Shown: one piece after another, positions 9,576 through 17,226 of the stretch
Layout: every line of letters starts with the position of its first letter
How positions within the stretch are numbered: position 1 is the first letter of the stretch
Assembly: GCA_002372735.1 (NCBI GenBank)
Contig: DFIE01000102.1
Coordinates: forward strand, 1-17,226
DNA length: 17,226 nt
Direction of reading: 5' to 3'
DNA from: Clostridiales bacterium UBA3705
Lineage (GTDB): Bacteria > Bacillota_A > Clostridia > Oscillospirales > Oscillospiraceae
The notes under the pieces: model-generated
Seen by the model: only the letters and a program-made list of their open reading frames with translations
Databases searched by the model: none
Told to the model about the DNA's origin: nothing
Made by a program: the position numbers and the translations under genes

Positions 9576-10397
9576 ATGTCTGTCATCGAATTCTTGAAGG
9601 TCCTTTTTCTGGGCCTGGTGGAGGGCATCACCGAGTGGCTGCCCATCTCCAGCACGGGGCATATGCTGCTGGTGGATGAGCTTTTGCAGCTGGACGCCTC
9701 CCAGGACTTTAAAGGCACCTTCTTTGTGGTGATTCAGCTGGGCGCCATATTGGCGGTGGTGATCCGCATGTGGCCCAAGCTGTGGCCCCTGGAGGCCCGG
9801 GGCGGGCTGCGGCTGAAACAGGACGTGCTCTCCACCTGGGGCAAGGTGGCCCTGGCCTGCGCGCCCGGGGCGGCAGCAGAGCTGCTGCTGGGCGACTATG
9901 TGGACGCCCACCTGGAGAATTTTGTCACCATCGCCTGCGCGCTGATCTTTTACGGCATCGTCTTTTTGGTGGTGGAGGGGATGCACCGCTCCGCCCCCAG
10001 GGTATCCACCGTGGAAGCCCTGCCCTGGACCACTGCCCTGGGCATCGGCCTGTTCCAGGTGCTGGCGCTGATTCCCGGCACGTCCCGCTCCGGCGCCACC
10101 ATCATCGGCGCGCTGCTGCTGGGAGTTTCCAGAGTGGCCGCCACAGAGTTCACCTTCCTGATGGCTGTGCCCGTAATGCTGGGCATGAGCGCCCTGAAGC
10201 TGCTGCAGCACGGTCTGAACTTCTCCGGCCGGGAGCTGGCCATCCTGGCACTGGGCATGGTTACGGCGTTTTTGGTGAGCATGGCGGTGATCCGCATGAT
10301 TCTGCGCTACATCAAAACCCACAGCTTCAAGGTCTTTGGCTGGTACCGGATCGCCCTGGGCGCCCTGGTGCTGCTGTATTTCCTGGTGATCAAATAA
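9576..10397 (+). CDS. uppP: Undecaprenyl-diphosphatase (BacA/UppP type)
   Basis: This integral membrane phosphatase converts undecaprenyl pyrophosphate, released at each round of wall polymerisation, to the monophosphate carrier used for lipid I; the family also confers bacitracin tolerance. The protein has 273 residues, the usual length, with about 8 hydrophobic segments. Signature motifs are EGITEWLPISSTGH (16-29, with Glu16 and Glu20) and PGTSRSGATI (about 167-176, with Arg171). AAAGGAG at 9561-9567 sets the ATG. The gap to gatD is 24 nt, so it belongs to the murT-gatD operon, linking lipid II modification with carrier recycling. A 7-bp hairpin without a T-run follows at 10398-10416. Confidence 0.97.
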   Translation: MSVIEFLKVLFLGLVEGITEWLPISSTGHMLLVDELLQLDASQDFKGTFFVVIQLGAILAVVIRMWPKLWPLEARGGLRLKQDVLSTWGKVALACAPGAAAELLLGDYVDAHLENFVTIACALIFYGIVFLVVEGMHRSAPRVSTVEALPWTTALGIGLFQVLALIPGTSRSGATIIGALLLGVSRVAATEFTFLMAVPVMLGMSALKLLQHGLNFSGRELAILALGMVTAFLVSMAVIRMILRYIKTHSFKVFGWYRIALGALVLLYFLVIK

Positions 10398-11559: not shown

Positions 11560-12918
11560 ATGAAAATTATTGTAGTTGGCTGCGGTAAAATCGGCGAGGC
11601 CCTGCTGCACACCTTTGTGCGCGAGGGGCACGACGTGGTAGCCATGGATAACCAGGATTCTGTCATCCAGAATCTGACCAACAAATATGACGTGATGTGC
11701 GTGTGCGGCAACGGCGCCGACTGCGAAACCCTGGAGGAGGCCGGCGTGGCAGAGGTCGATCTGCTGGTGGCCGTCACCGGGTCTGATGAGATGAATATGC
11801 TCAGCTGCTTCCTGGCCCGGCGGATGGGCGCAAAGCACACCATCGCCCGGATCCGCAACCCGGAGTACAACGACCGGTCGCTCAGCTTTATGCGCCAGCA
11901 GCTGCACCTGTCCATGTCCATCAACCCCGAGCTTCTGGCCGCCCAGGAGCTGTACCATATGCTGAAGCTGCCCCCCGGGGTCAAGGTGGAGTTCTTCTCC
12001 CGCCGGATGTTTGAGATGATCGAATCCAAGCTCAAGCCCGGCTCCCCCTTCTGCGGCATCCCCCTGGCGGAGCTGCGCAACCGCCACAAGGCCAACTTCC
12101 TGATCTGCGTGGTGCAGCGCAACAGCCAGATCATCATCCCCCGGGGCGATTTTGTGCTGGAGCCCGGCGACAAGATCGGTCTGACCGCCAAGCCCTCTGA
12201 GATGAACAAGCTGTTCAAGTCCATGGGCATCACCAACCGCACCGCCCGGGACGTCATGCTGCTGGGCGGCAGCAAAACCGCCTTTTACCTGGCCAAGATG
12301 CTTACCTCTGCCGGCACCAACGTCAAGATCATTGACACCGACCGCCACGTCTGCCGGGATCTGTGCGACGCCATCCCCGCAGTGTCCGCCATTCACGGCG
12401 ACGGCACCCACCAGGAGCTGCTGCTGGAGGAGGGCCTGGGGGACCAGGACGCCTTTGTGGCCCTGACCGGTATGGACGAGGAGAACATTCTGGTCTCCTT
12501 CTTTGCCACCTCCCAAAAGGTACCCAAGGTCATCGCCAAGGTCAACCGGGAGGAGATGGCCCAGCTGGCCGACCAGCTGGGGCTGGACTCCATCATCCGC
12601 ACCAAGGAGATCGTCAACAATGTGGTGCTCCGCTACGCCCGGGCCCTGGACAGCTCTAAGGGCAGCAGCATCGAAACCCTGTACCAGGTGATGGACGGCA
12701 AGGCCGAGGCCCTGGAATTTGTGGTTCAGCAGCAGAGCCGGGTCACCGGCACGGCGCTGAGGGACCTTGCCATCAAGCCCAACATCCTGATTGCCGGCAT
12801 CGTCCGGGAGCGCAAAACCATCATCCCCTCCGGCGAGGACATGATCCTGCCCGGGGATCGGGTGGTGGTCATCGCCGCCGACCAGCGGCTCAACGCCCTG
12901 GGCGACATCCTCAAATAG
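11560..12918 (+). CDS. trkA: Trk potassium uptake system, regulatory subunit TrkA
   Basis: This cytoplasmic nucleotide-binding subunit gates the TrkH channel. Its 452 residues match the duplicated TrkA architecture: RCK-N (1-130), RCK-C (about 140-220), a second RCK-N (about 230-355) and a second RCK-C (to the end). The first Rossmann motif GCGKIG (7-12) with Asp30 at the end of strand 2 is canonical for NAD(H) binding. The second site (LLGGSKTAFYLA) is less canonical. A GAAAGG site at 11543-11548 is rather far from the ATG, and the ATGA overlap with the upstream mini-ORF could help initiation. trkH follows after 12 nt, so the two are cotranscribed. Confidence 0.95.
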   Translation: MKIIVVGCGKIGEALLHTFVREGHDVVAMDNQDSVIQNLTNKYDVMCVCGNGADCETLEEAGVAEVDLLVAVTGSDEMNMLSCFLARRMGAKHTIARIRNPEYNDRSLSFMRQQLHLSMSINPELLAAQELYHMLKLPPGVKVEFFSRRMFEMIESKLKPGSPFCGIPLAELRNRHKANFLICVVQRNSQIIIPRGDFVLEPGDKIGLTAKPSEMNKLFKSMGITNRTARDVMLLGGSKTAFYLAKMLTSAGTNVKIIDTDRHVCRDLCDAIPAVSAIHGDGTHQELLLEEGLGDQDAFVALTGMDEENILVSFFATSQKVPKVIAKVNREEMAQLADQLGLDSIIRTKEIVNNVVLRYARALDSSKGSSIETLYQVMDGKAEALEFVVQQQSRVTGTALRDLAIKPNILIAGIVRERKTIIPSGEDMILPGDRVVVIAADQRLNALGDILK

Positions 12919-12930
12919 CGGGAGGGGCCT

Positions 12931-14376
12931 ATGAATCGCAAAATGGTATTCTACCTGCTGGGCCGGCTGATCCTGCTGGAGGGCGCCCTGCTGGTGGCGC
13001 CGCTGTTGGTGTCGCTGGTTTACCACGACCTGGGCACGGTGCCCTTTCTCATCACCATCGGCATCTGCCTGGGCCTGGGCGGGGCACTGAGCCTGTTCTG
13101 CCACACCGGCGACCAGGTGATCTTTGCCAAAGAGGGCTTTATTGTCACCTCGCTGGCCTGGCTGGCGGTCTCCGCCCTGGGCGCACTGCCCTTTGTCATC
13201 GCCGGGGAGATTCCCTCCTACGTTGACGCCTTCTTTGAAACCGTCTCCGGCTTTACCACCACAGGCGCCTCCATCCTCACCGACGTGGAGGCCATGTGCC
13301 ACTCCATGCTGTTTTGGCGCAGCTTTACCCACTGGATGGGCGGCATGGGCGTGCTGGTGCTGATGGTGGCCATTGTGCCCAATCTCTCCGGCCGGACCAT
13401 CCACGTGCTCCGGGCAGAGATGCCCGGCCCCACCATGGGCAAGCTGGTACCCAAGCTGCGGGACACCGCGCGGATCCTGTACCTGCTGTACATGGCGCTG
13501 ACGGCCCTGGAGTTTGTCCTGCTGCTGCTGGGCGGCATGCCCCTGTTTGACAGCGCCGTCCACGCCCTGGGCACCGCCGGCACCGGCGGCTTCGGCATCC
13601 GGGGCGACTCCATCGGCTCTTACTCCGCCTATGAGCAGTGGGTGATTGCCGTGTTTATGATGCTCTTCGGCGTGAACTTCAACCTCTACTACCTGCTGCT
13701 GATCCGGCGGTTTAAGCCGGTGTTCCGCAGCGAGGAGTTCTGGACCTATGTGTGCGTGGTGCTGGCCGCCACCGGGGTGATCACCGTAAACATCCTGCCC
13801 CTGTACGGCAACGTGGCCGAGGCCACCCGGCACGCCTTCTTCCAGGTGAACACAGTGGTGTCCACCACAGGCTTCTCCACCGCAGACTTCAACCTGTGGC
13901 CGGAGCTGTCCAAGGCGATCTTGGTGCTGCTGATGTTTATGGGCGGCTGCGCGGGCTCCACCGCCGGCGGACTGAAAGTCTCCAGGCTGGTGCTGCTGTA
14001 CAAGACCACCAAGCGGGAGCTGCGCCACCTGCTCCACCCCAGGTCTGTGGGTGTGGTCCGGTTTGAGGGCAAGCGGGTGGACAACTCGGTGCTGGTGTCT
14101 GTGAGCACCTACTTTGCCCTGTATATGGGCCTGTTCGCCCTGTTCTTCTTCATCACCTCCTTCCAGCCGGGGTACGACTTCACCTCCAACTTCACGGCGG
14201 TGGCCTCCTGCTTCAACAACATCGGCCCGGGCCTGAATCTGGTAGGTCCGGCGGCCAACTTTGCAGGCTACACCCCGCTGATCAAGGTGGTGCTCTCCAT
14301 TGCCATGCTCTTTGGCCGGCTGGAGATCTATCCCCTGCTGCTGAGCTTCTCCCCCAGCACCTGGATCAAGAAATAA
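12931..14376 (+). CDS. trkH: Trk potassium uptake system, channel subunit TrkH
   Basis: This K+-translocating membrane subunit has 481 residues, the size of E. coli TrkH (483). It has the four-fold M1-P-M2 plan of the Trk/Ktr/HKT superfamily. The four selectivity-filter loops are visible: SGFTTTGAS (about 106-114), GTAGTGGFG (about 214-222), STTGFS (311-316) and NNIGPGLN (about 429-436). Each holds the glycine that lines the filter. GGGAGGGG precedes the ATG. It forms an operon with trkA and is closed by a palindromic terminator shared with the converging HtrA-like gene. Confidence 0.96.
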   Translation: MNRKMVFYLLGRLILLEGALLVAPLLVSLVYHDLGTVPFLITIGICLGLGGALSLFCHTGDQVIFAKEGFIVTSLAWLAVSALGALPFVIAGEIPSYVDAFFETVSGFTTTGASILTDVEAMCHSMLFWRSFTHWMGGMGVLVLMVAIVPNLSGRTIHVLRAEMPGPTMGKLVPKLRDTARILYLLYMALTALEFVLLLLGGMPLFDSAVHALGTAGTGGFGIRGDSIGSYSAYEQWVIAVFMMLFGVNFNLYYLLLIRRFKPVFRSEEFWTYVCVVLAATGVITVNILPLYGNVAEATRHAFFQVNTVVSTTGFSTADFNLWPELSKAILVLLMFMGGCAGSTAGGLKVSRLVLLYKTTKRELRHLLHPRSVGVVRFEGKRVDNSVLVSVSTYFALYMGLFALFFFITSFQPGYDFTSNFTAVASCFNNIGPGLNLVGPAANFAGYTPLIKVVLSIAMLFGRLEIYPLLLSFSPSTWIKK

Positions 14377-14418
14377 AAAATGATTGCCGCGTTCTGCAGA
14401 ACGCGGCAATCATTTTTT
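14375..14418. terminator. Bidirectional intrinsic terminator, 44-bp perfect palindrome
   Basis: The two 22-nt arms (14375-14396 and 14397-14418) are perfect reverse complements, starting with six A and ending with six T, so a T-run follows the stem in both directions. It overlaps the trkH stop codon by 2 nt on the left and the HtrA-like stop codon by 2 nt on the right, serving both converging genes. Confidence 0.93.
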
Positions 14419-15676
14419 ATCCGGCCAGCACCGGCACCGTGGCAGTGTACCAGTTGCCGGCTCGGTAGATGGTGAGCTTGACGGTGTCGCCCACCTGGTG
14501 GGCGCTGAGACAGTCCCGGTATTGCTCCAGGGTGCTGACCTCCACGCCGTCCACGGCGGTGATCACGTCAAGGGGATAGAGTACCTGATCCACGGGGCTG
14601 CCCTCGTACACGGCTTCTACCCAGAGCCTGCCGGGATAGCCGAAGTACTGCAGGTAGTTCTCCGGGATCAGACCCACCTCCATACCCAGGCTGAGACTCT
14701 GGCCGCTGCCCGCTGTGAGCAGGGCGGAGACCACGCTCTGCAGGCCGGTGCTGTCCAGGGCAAAGCAGGGGTCGCTGCCGTCTGCGGTGAACCAGCGCCC
14801 CACCGGGCAGGTCAGCCCCACCACCTGGCCGTAGACGTTAAAGATGGGGCAGCCGTGCTCCCTGCCGTCGCCGGCGGTGGTTTGCAGCAGCTCCAGGGAC
14901 GCGCCCCCCAGGCTCTGGCTGGTCTTGGCGGAGAGAATCCCCTGGGTGAGCACCCGGGGCATGGCCGCGCCGTAGGGATTGCCCACGCTGTACACCGTCT
15001 GCCCCACCTGGAGATTGGCGCTGCGGCCGAACTCCGCGGGGCTCAGCCCCTCGGCCTCTACCTTGAGCAGGGCAATGCCGGTGGAGCTGTCCTCCGCCAC
15101 CCGCTGGGCGGTGGTGCGGGTGCCGTCGGGCAGGGTGGCGTACAGGGCGCTCACCCCGGCAAGACTCTCGGCGGCGGTGAGCAGATAGCCATCCTGGGTG
15201 AGCACCACCCCGGTGGCGGTACAGGTCTCATACAGGGTACTGTACTCCAGCAGCACCACGCTGCCGGACACCTTGCGGTACACCGCGGCGGCGTCCAGGG
15301 CGCCGGCGGCGTCAGAGGCGCCCTGAAGCCGGATGCCGGCCTCCCGCTGGTCCGCTGCCCGCTGGGTGACGGTGCTCTGCCCGGCCTGGACCGGAGACAG
15401 GGCCTGGATCTGCCGCTCGTCAGACTCGGTCAGCCGGCGCTCCGCCACGGTGAGCATCCAGCCGTCTGCATCAGAGTGGACCAGGCGGATCTCCAGCATG
15501 GCCAGAAGCACCGTCACGCTGGAGACCAGCACCACCGCCAGACACAGGCTGACCCACAGGGGGGTGAGATCCCGCTTGGGCACCTGGGGGGTGGCAGTGC
15601 CGTAAAAATCACAGGGCTTGGCAGGGGGCTGCATTTCCAGCACCTCTGCCTCCATGGGAATTAACTTGTCTTCCAC
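14417..15676 (-). CDS. Membrane-anchored HtrA-like protein with PDZ domain, catalytic triad lost
   Basis: The 419 residues consist of a cytoplasmic tail (1-37), one transmembrane helix (38-62), a linker, a trypsin-like HtrA domain (about 130-325) and a PDZ domain (about 330-415). The order copies HtrA/DegP of Gram-positives. Landmarks are kept: TGVVLTQDGYLLTA (155-168), ALLKVE (202-207), VGQTVYSVGNPYG (224-236), LTQGILSA (243-250), LLQT (263-266) and GQVVGL (283-288). By this alignment the catalytic His is Glu170, the Asp is Gly200 and the Ser is His274 (REHGCP instead of NSGGP). So it is probably a non-proteolytic binding or sensing protein. The start is a GTG (15674-15676) 16 nt after the kinase stop; an in-frame ATG at 15655 is possible. 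It is the last gene of the regulator-kinase operon. Confidence 0.85.
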   Translation of the reverse strand: MEDKLIPMEAEVLEMQPPAKPCDFYGTATPQVPKRDLTPLWVSLCLAVVLVSSVTVLLAMLEIRLVHSDADGWMLTVAERRLTESDERQIQALSPVQAGQSTVTQRAADQREAGIRLQGASDAAGALDAAAVYRKVSGSVVLLEYSTLYETCTATGVVLTQDGYLLTAAESLAGVSALYATLPDGTRTTAQRVAEDSSTGIALLKVEAEGLSPAEFGRSANLQVGQTVYSVGNPYGAAMPRVLTQGILSAKTSQSLGGASLELLQTTAGDGREHGCPIFNVYGQVVGLTCPVGRWFTADGSDPCFALDSTGLQSVVSALLTAGSGQSLSLGMEVGLIPENYLQYFGYPGRLWVEAVYEGSPVDQVLYPLDVITAVDGVEVSTLEQYRDCLSAHQVGDTVKLTIYRAGNWYTATVPVLAG

Positions 15677-15692
15677 TGCGGTTCACCGCCCT

Positions 15693-17120
15693 TCAGGCTT
15701 TTTTCACGGTAAAGGAGAACTCGGTCTCCCCGCCCCGGCTGGTGACGTACACGTCCTCGCCGTGGCTGAGAATGATGGTTTTGACGATATACAGGCCCAG
15801 GCCCACCCCGTCCCGGTCCACGCTGCGGCTCTTGTCCGTCTTGTGGAAGCGGTCAAACACCAGGGGCAGCTCCTCGGGGGCAATGGTGGGGCCGGTGTTT
15901 TTCACCGAGACCAGATACTTGTTCTGCTTGGTCTGCTTGACCGCCAGGCTCAGCACCCCGTCCTGGGGGCAGAACTTCACGGCGTTATCAATGAGATTAT
16001 ACACCACCTGGGTGATGGCGTCCGGGTCGGCCACGGCCCGGGCCCCCTGCTCAGGCATATCCACCTGGACGTCCAGGTGCTTTTGGTTGATCTTCTGCTC
16101 AAAGCTGATGAGCACCTGGCCCACCGTGTCGCAGACGTCAAAGCTCCGCATCCGTTCGGGAGGGATGCCCTTGTCCTGCAGGCGGGAGATCTCCAGCATG
16201 GAGCGCACCAGCCGGGACAGGCGCTTGACCTCCTGGGAGATGGTCTGCATATACCGGGGTTGGTCCTCTGCGGGGATGGTGCCGTCCAGCATGCCGTCCA
16301 TGTAGCCGGAGATGGTGGTCATAGGGGTTTTCAGCTCGTGGCTGACGTTGGCCACAAACTCCTGCCGCTTGTGCTCAGAGGTCTGCAGGGCCTGGGCCAT
16401 GTTGTTAAAGGCCACCGCCAGCTCGTCCATCTCGGCGGTGTTGTCGCCGCCGGTGGGCACCCGGGCGTCCATCTGGCCGTGGCCCAGGCGGCGGGCCGCG
16501 GCGGTGAGCTCTTTGATGGGCTTGGTCTGGCGCTGCACCAGGGCCCACACCAGGGGCAGAGAGAGCACCATCACCGCCACCACGGTGACCAGATTGATCT
16601 TGGTGGCGTTGCCCATCAGCGAGTGCAGCTGCCCGGCATCCACCGAGGAGAGCACATAGAGCTCTGTGCTGCCGGCGCCCAGGGTGACCGGGGCCAGGCA
16701 GGCCATGCGGGCGGTGGGATAGCAGTCCGCCCGCAGGCCGGTGGTAAACCGGGAGCCGGCATCGTCCTTGGCTGCAAGCTGGTCCAGCTCCACCCGGCTG
16801 CCCAGGTGCTCGCAGCTCTGCATCCCGCAGGAGCAGGCCACCACGGTGCCGGTCTGGTCCAGGACCACAGTGTCATAGCCCGTGGCCCGGGCGGTGTAGT
16901 TCAGCTGCAGGCGGAGCATCAGGGAGGACTGCAGCCCCCCGTCCAGCCCGTACAGGCCTGTCATATCCGCCGCCGCCGTGGCCGAGGAGGTGAGCCCCTG
17001 GCGCAGCAGGGCCAGGGTGGACTGGTAGTATAAAAACTGGGTGGAGGCGCTCAGCACAATCAGCGTGAGAAAGATCAGGCTGATGGTCATCATGAGCTGG
17101 CCGGTAAAGCTGCGCTTCAC
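15693..17120 (-). CDS. Sensor histidine kinase of an OmpR-type two-component system
   Basis: This 475-residue membrane kinase has TM1 (about 9-31), an extracytoplasmic sensor domain (about 32-173), TM2 (about 174-196), HAMP (about 197-250), HisKA with the phosphoacceptor His261 in FVANVSHELKTPM, and an HATPase_c domain with NLIDNAVKFCP and DRDGVGLGLYIVK (about 365-473). The sensor domain holds five cysteines: Cys96, Cys98 and Cys103 (followed by Glu104 and His105) and Cys133 and Cys141. This suggests a disulfide or metal site. The start is a GTG (17118-17120) that overlaps the regulator's TGA as GTGA, so translation is coupled. The stimulus is unknown; the HtrA-like protein 16 nt downstream suggests envelope state. 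Confidence 0.94.
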   Translation of the reverse strand: MKRSFTGQLMMTISLIFLTLIVLSASTQFLYYQSTLALLRQGLTSSATAAADMTGLYGLDGGLQSSLMLRLQLNYTARATGYDTVVLDQTGTVVACSCGMQSCEHLGSRVELDQLAAKDDAGSRFTTGLRADCYPTARMACLAPVTLGAGSTELYVLSSVDAGQLHSLMGNATKINLVTVVAVMVLSLPLVWALVQRQTKPIKELTAAARRLGHGQMDARVPTGGDNTAEMDELAVAFNNMAQALQTSEHKRQEFVANVSHELKTPMTTISGYMDGMLDGTIPAEDQPRYMQTISQEVKRLSRLVRSMLEISRLQDKGIPPERMRSFDVCDTVGQVLISFEQKINQKHLDVQVDMPEQGARAVADPDAITQVVYNLIDNAVKFCPQDGVLSLAVKQTKQNKYLVSVKNTGPTIAPEELPLVFDRFHKTDKSRSVDRDGVGLGLYIVKTIILSHGEDVYVTSRGGETEFSFTVKKA

Positions 17121-17226
17121 GGGTTGGCCACCTCGAACTTATAGCCCACGCTCCACACGGTTTTCAGGCTCCACTGGTCGGACACGCCCTCCAGCTTCTC
17201 CCGCAGGCGCTTGATGTGCACGTCCA
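17117..17226 (-). CDS. OmpR/PhoB-family response regulator, partial (C-terminal 35 aa)
   Basis: The frame enters from the right edge and ends with TGA at 17117-17119. The visible 35 residues, DVHIKRLREKLEG followed by LKTVWSVGYKFE, are the recognition helix and wing of an OmpR/PhoB winged-helix DNA-binding domain. The receiver domain lies outside the window. The gene precedes and overlaps the histidine kinase by 4 nt, so it is the cognate regulator. Confidence 0.9.
   Translation of the reverse strand, partial: DVHIKRLREKLEGVSDQWSLKTVWSVGYKFEVANP

Follow-up and report, generated by a model that had tools for sequence, protein, structure and literature searches.

The closest described relatives of the locus reported here are HtrA genes that stand beside a two-component system and are induced by it (PMC12826053, PMC3062566). 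In the MprAB-PepD system of Mycobacterium, the genes run in the order response regulator (RR), histidine kinase (HK), HtrA, and PepD is both a protease and a chaperone (PMC3062566). In CssRS-HtrA/HtrB of Bacillus subtilis, the two-component system lies directly upstream of htrA (htrA2 in the review) and controls it (PMC12826053); Bacillus HtrA is active, its dead form having been engineered (PMC10715036). For CutRS of Streptomyces, the source describes regulation of HtrA3 and HtrB only (PMC10433416). We analysed a 17,226-nucleotide stretch of Clostridiales bacterium UBA3705 (Oscillospiraceae; contig DFIE01000102.1), hereafter the window, in which the same neighbours in the same order end in an HtrA-like gene of 419 codons (14417..15676, minus strand). 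Unlike PepD and Bacillus HtrA, the product of this gene naturally lacks the catalytic triad.

Two other kinds of HtrA bear comparison. MamO of magnetotactic bacteria is, like the window protein, a pseudoprotease of HtrA fold whose triad is degenerate and whose position 193 is not Gly, and it too belongs to a clade; it acts with the protease MamE, of which inactive copies are also known (PMC4794232). It differs in being a magnetosome protein that binds metal, and the parts of that paper covered do not report a kinase operon. DegS and AlgW differ in that DegS signals by cleaving RseA (PMC12826053), whilst the window protein has no catalytic residues. Both parts, HtrA-fold pseudoproteases and RR-HK-HtrA operons, are known; the literature searched, which was mostly titles and abstracts and included few subscription journals, gave no natural pseudoprotease standing as the constant third gene of an operon of this kind.

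The triad positions were read from phmmer alignments to solved AlgW and DegP-like chains and from a multiple alignment that took in the 80 genome loci described below. Glu170 (15167..15169) occupies the position of the catalytic His and His274 (14855..14857) that of the Ser by both methods, and Gly200 (15077..15079) that of the Asp by the multiple alignment, all on the minus strand. In the phmmer alignments, AAE pairs with NNH, STGIALL with TDLAVL, and DGREHGCPI with NPGNSGGAL/NPGNAGGPL. These are the residues named in the initial annotation, and the intact frame described there also stands, running from a GTG start with no internal stop. Its statement that the HtrA landmarks around each catalytic position are preserved holds only in part. 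Arg272 replaces the oxyanion Gly, which is present in all 47 triad-intact copies with an HK upstream and gone in 15/17 aligned rows of the pseudoprotease clade defined below; Asn168, Asn270 and Asn273, invariant in the same 47 copies, are replaced in 17/17, 15/17 and 16/17 clade rows, respectively; and the VEGxGFAIP strand has lost its Gly residues and Pro in most of the clade. Given the established chemistry of S1 peptidases, the loss of catalytic and oxyanion residues means that proteolysis by the normal mechanism would not be expected of this protein.

The fold and the PDZ domain, as judged from sequence and prediction, are kept. An N-terminal tail (aa 1-37) is followed by a single predicted transmembrane (TM) helix (aa 38-60), a linker predicted partly at low confidence, a trypsin-like domain (about aa 128-325) and a PDZ domain (about aa 326-416). 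Pfam places Trypsin_2 at aa 154-288 (E 7e-21) and PDZ_2 at aa 350-416 (E 3e-10). The tail (MEDKLIPMEAEVLE...FYGTA; 15566..15676, minus strand) is conserved in the pseudoprotease clade and would be cytoplasmic. The window protein therefore has the trypsin-like fold and PDZ that define S1C HtrAs but neither their His-Asp-Ser triad nor their oxyanion Gly (Glu170, Gly200, His274, Arg272), and we class it as an HtrA relative by sequence, not as an HtrA peptidase. Its score with the NCBIfam Do-family model TIGR02037 (121.6 bits) lies below the cut-off of 416.2; both triad-intact operon copies tested also fall below it (272.7 and 274.8 bits), so this cut-off does not discriminate. A DegS-like architecture, with one TM anchor and one PDZ, is predicted, and the NCBIfam DegS model gives 71.8 bits, its cut-off being 422.95. 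The features of the MamO type (degenerate triad, non-Gly at 193, a retained clade) are all found, with Gly kept in 2/17 clade rows though not in the window; with the NCBIfam MamO equivalog the window protein reaches 30.3 bits, the cut-off being 800.

The triad-less pattern is not confined to the window. A protein search returned eight near-full-length relatives (P0002-P0009; BLASTP identity 36-41%), all without the triad. In a genome scan, of which the best 80 of 227 loci were used, seven loci (L001-L007) scored >445 bits with the clade profile and the next locus 254, and sampled genomes of the family added four further members (L112, L113, L150, L152). Leaving out P0005, whose identity to L005 is 88% or more, there are 19 distinct members including the window, 34-46% identical to its protein where compared. 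His and Asp are missing from all 19, with Gly standing for the Asp in every one, so that the survey of homologues reveals a group and not one decayed copy. Across 17 aligned rows, the residues found are D6 S4 E3 Q2 A1 G1 for His, Gly in 17/17 for Asp, and Y6 G3 N2 S2 H2 F1 C1 for Ser; L150 and L152, which joined later, read N-G-W and E-G-Y. The two rows that keep Ser (L002 and L112) have neither His nor Asp. Residues specific to the clade include Gly200 and Trp352 (17/17 rows), and Ala10 and Glu11 (16/17). Trp352, in the PDZ domain (14621..14623, minus strand), is Trp in 19/19 members and Tyr in 32/47 triad-intact operon copies. Cys276, two residues past the old Ser position, occurs in 14/17 rows (16/19 members), and Gly331 of the PDZ loop in 16/17. 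As the pattern is common to the whole clade, chance and a frame or sequencing error were ruled out as explanations. The pseudoprotease, carried by some uncultured Clostridia, is a minority trait in the family: a clade member occurs in at least 5 of 300 sampled genomes, with triads read in 30 loci among the best matches listed, and in at least 8 of 400 genomes of a second, overlapping draw that required E 1e-60 to one clade member; both counts are lower bounds, with at most five or at most four candidates scored per genome.

The kinase gene lies directly upstream (15693..17120, minus strand; 475 aa). Its product has an extracytoplasmic PAS/Cache-like sensor, HAMP, HisKA and HATPase domains, and H-, N- and G-box motifs. 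The HK stop is 16 nt from the HtrA start, and the sequence GTGA (17117-17120) holds both the start of the HK and the stop of the RR, which overlap. Only the last 35 codons of the RR gene lie in the window (17117..17226, minus strand), with an OmpR-type C-terminus by eye; with the RR so identified, the window has the RR-HK-HtrA order on one strand with short gaps. The linkage to the kinase, as first annotated, extends beyond the window: the same kinase is upstream in 12/12 clade members with DNA, and an open reading frame of RR size, judged by size and position, ends at the HK start in 7/7 of L001-L007. A relative of the window kinase is nearby in 51/80 loci, 7 of them beside pseudoproteases (60-73% identical to the window HK) and 44 beside other HtrAs (one weak, L070); the 29 loci without one are mostly Ruminococcus-type. 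With near-duplicates removed, 48 triad-intact rows have an HK open reading frame within 900 bp upstream. The RR-HK-HtrA operon is common in these Clostridia (Oscillospiraceae, Flavonifractor and Clostridia by record titles), and since its triad-intact form is common in relatives, the dead copy occupies the slot of an active one. The operon probably serves in envelope stress. Within the kinase sensor, aa 96-105 hold a C-x-C-x4-C-x-H motif, of which all four residues are present in 10/10 aligned clade kinases; Cys98 is Asp in 25/47 kinases outside the clade. This is a possible metal or redox site.

To place the loss of the triad, we used an HtrA tree without the triad columns (79 of 105 rows, Ruminococcus-type rows as outgroup). 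Before the counts and HtrA trees, 17 near-identical rows had been set aside, together with L046, L070 and duplicates of other loci (L111, L114 and L115). All 17 triad-less rows fall into a single clade (support 100/100), whose branch measures 1.33 changes per column. A second HtrA tree, in which several clade rows draw flags for their letter composition and for long branches, gives the clade an SH-aLRT of 100. In a tree built from the kinases alone, the 10 kinases beside pseudoproteases also form one clade (100/100) and, with a midpoint root, nest inside kinases of triad-intact operons; 18 short, partial or duplicate HKs were left out of the HK trees. With the dead HtrAs in one clade and their kinases in one clade, the simplest reading is that the active operon protease lost catalysis once, in a common ancestor, and that the dead form was kept. 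The initial annotation had held that triad-retaining homologues in the same operon position would make this copy merely degraded. Such homologues do exist (the 48 rows above), but the dead copies are one divergent clade with intact frames and degradation does not follow.

Losses outside the clade look separate. At L078:5758-7095, in the same operon position, the triad reads Q-N-S and the loop before the Ser is shortened; this is apparently an independent loss, in a genome that also has two separate intact HtrAs. Partial losses occur in P0017 and L124 (H-D-Y), P0014 (A-D-S) and L125 (K-D-S), and triad erosion, to judge by these residues, recurs in this HtrA group; the least number of changes is 4 in the tree without triad columns and 3 in the second. 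P0014 and L116 were considered as stepping stones and share the N-tail motif, but the tree pairs them with each other (97/92), apart from the clade, so we claim no order of losses. L125 was likewise rejected as sister of the clade, with support of only 85/69.

In the closest clade pairs, dN/dS is 0.24 (L004-L006) and 0.25 (L005-L113); ten triad-intact control pairs give 0.11-0.42. Conservation was compared domain by domain between pairs matched on HK identity, in bins of 0.55-0.62, 0.62-0.70 and 0.70-0.82 (16, 16 and 11 clade pairs and 101, 64 and 40 intact pairs, the pairs not being independent). Across the three bins, conservation in the clade is far lower than in intact copies for the protease domain (0.40, 0.43 and 0.58 against 0.70, 0.70 and 0.74), slightly lower or equal for the PDZ (0.41, 0.40 and 0.56 against 0.46, 0.48 and 0.56) and higher for the N-terminal tail (0.49, 0.47 and 0.59 against 0.40, 0.42 and 0.47). 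This is the pattern expected if catalysis had been freed from selection whilst binding and the tail had not. With a clade of intact triad-less frames, clade-specific invariant residues and the purifying selection evident in the dN/dS of the two closest pairs, the window protein is very probably a retained pseudoprotease, as originally proposed.

In 11/11 clade genomes searched (G001-G007, G268, G305, G355 and G410, the window's relatives), another contig carries at least one more HtrA-like frame that reads H-D-S. Additional Trypsin_2 matches in clade genomes (L110, L146 and L158) are outside this count, their full triads being unread. No near relative of the window kinase accompanies these second HtrAs in the short flanks read (L153-L155 not included); L092 has a weak HK match nearby (50 bits). 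A separate intact HtrA is probably also present in most relatives. A paralogue as the cause of the loss was rejected as not discriminating, a single Trypsin_2 match being found in 3/29 genomes with triad-intact operons and in G012 and G172, all drafts; an extra HtrA that is common in relatives permits the loss of the triad without explaining it.

We consider the best explanation, and a reasonably probable one, to be that this is the third gene of an RR-HK-HtrA operon whose product was kept as a non-cutting protein after it lost catalysis. Its role is probably to hold on to damaged proteins or to adjust the sensor, with no cutting involved, and most likely it would be a PDZ-bearing non-cutting sensor or holdase that feeds back on the kinase; that it acts through the kinase we put forward tentatively, at slightly worse than even chances. 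The TM helix would anchor the protein with its tail inside and its HtrA-PDZ part outside. The PDZ would bind exposed C-termini of misfolded or mislocalised proteins, contact with substrates or kinase being made through the PDZ and membrane parts, and the bound and free forms may make the neighbouring kinase more or less active, which would be a feedback that needs no cleavage. Cutting would be left to the separate intact HtrA of the same cell. The steps observed directly are the loss of catalytic residues, the retention of the gene and the kinase linkage. In B. subtilis, CssS and CssR were more abundant later in culture with a dead HtrA than with none (PMC10715036), which implies that the output of a system of this kind can respond to an HtrA that does not cut. 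The protease and chaperone shares of HtrA have so far been approached with engineered dead mutants. The clade is evolution's own version of that experiment, with triad-intact same-slot copies and related kinases as natural controls, and makes a non-proteolytic role of HtrA beside a two-component system directly testable.

It is very unlikely that the gene is a decaying remnant carried along by the operon. The protease domain is indeed far less constrained than in intact copies, the protein diverges faster than its own HK (window and L001 share 46% in HtrA against 74% in HK), and full or partial triad losses recur (L078, L124, L125, P0014, P0017). However, none of the 12 clade loci with DNA has a broken frame, though the searches favour intact frames, and simple decay is disfavoured by the dN/dS of the two closest pairs and by clade-specific residues such as Gly200 and Trp352, present in 19/19 members. 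Least credible of all is that the protein remains an enzyme through a rebuilt active site, with Cys276 as the candidate residue: Cys276 is missing in 3 rows, as many as 6 and 7 kinds of residue occur at the His and Ser positions, respectively, in 17 rows, and the oxyanion Gly is mostly lost.

More serious, though still unlikely, is that the protein is a holdase only, induced by the kinase and shielding misfolded secreted proteins at the membrane with no feedback. The fold and PDZ are kept, and in B. subtilis a protease-dead HtrA raised amylase yield and the chaperone activity of HtrA is credited as independent of cleavage (PMC10715036); a holdase alone leaves unexplained both the conservation of the N-terminal tail whilst the protease domain drifts and the linkage to one kinase in 12/12 loci. 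Less likely again is a regulatory subunit that joins the separate active HtrA of the cell and modulates it, in the way that MamO promotes MamE-dependent proteolysis (PMC4794232). The partner is at hand in every clade genome searched, but a separate HtrA is also common without a pseudoprotease, and on other contigs of draft genomes it offers no linkage in favour. We think it slightly less probable still that the dead protease is a receptor subunit whose PDZ reads C-termini for the kinase and that, in addition, the Cys276 site and the kinase C-x-C-x4-C-x-H form a joint metal or redox unit. Several observations weigh against our favoured explanation of a non-cutting third gene kept beside its kinase. 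The PAS/Cache-like sensor could bind a ligand of its own, and the later rise of CssS and CssR leaves the sign of any effect unsettled. The nesting of the clade kinases hangs on the choice of a midpoint root. More than one Trypsin_2 match occurs in 26/29 genomes with triad-intact operons, the triads of the extra copies being unread. Among the 45 clade pairs, most of the distant ones have higher dN/dS, up to 0.77; their dS is large, and they carry little weight. Finally, across the same HK identity bins the TM helix (0.28, 0.37 and 0.44 against 0.36, 0.46 and 0.51) and the linker (0.17, 0.19 and 0.30 against 0.23, 0.26 and 0.36) show lower conservation in clade pairs than in intact pairs; an apparently higher conservation of the TM helix in unmatched data was reversed once pairs were matched.

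Directly 3' of the pseudoprotease gene lies a terminator-like hairpin of 20 pairs with a T tail (14373..14420, minus strand), before a convergent trkH; we would guess that the two share it. A sigma-70-like site was not found in 14300-17226, a weak test given that shuffles yield 0.4. The trkH belongs to a trkA-trkH-like potassium uptake pair, named by eye (11560-14376, plus strand) and convergent with the operon; the window trk, mrp and other upstream genes had no match in the available flanks of L001-L007. In 20/80 loci (L010, L012-L020 and ten others), none in the pseudoprotease clade, the opposite strand carries an uppP-like gene (undecaprenyl-diphosphatase), in most cases some 1 kb upstream of the kinase match; the window has its own uppP at 9576-10397, differently placed relative to the operon.
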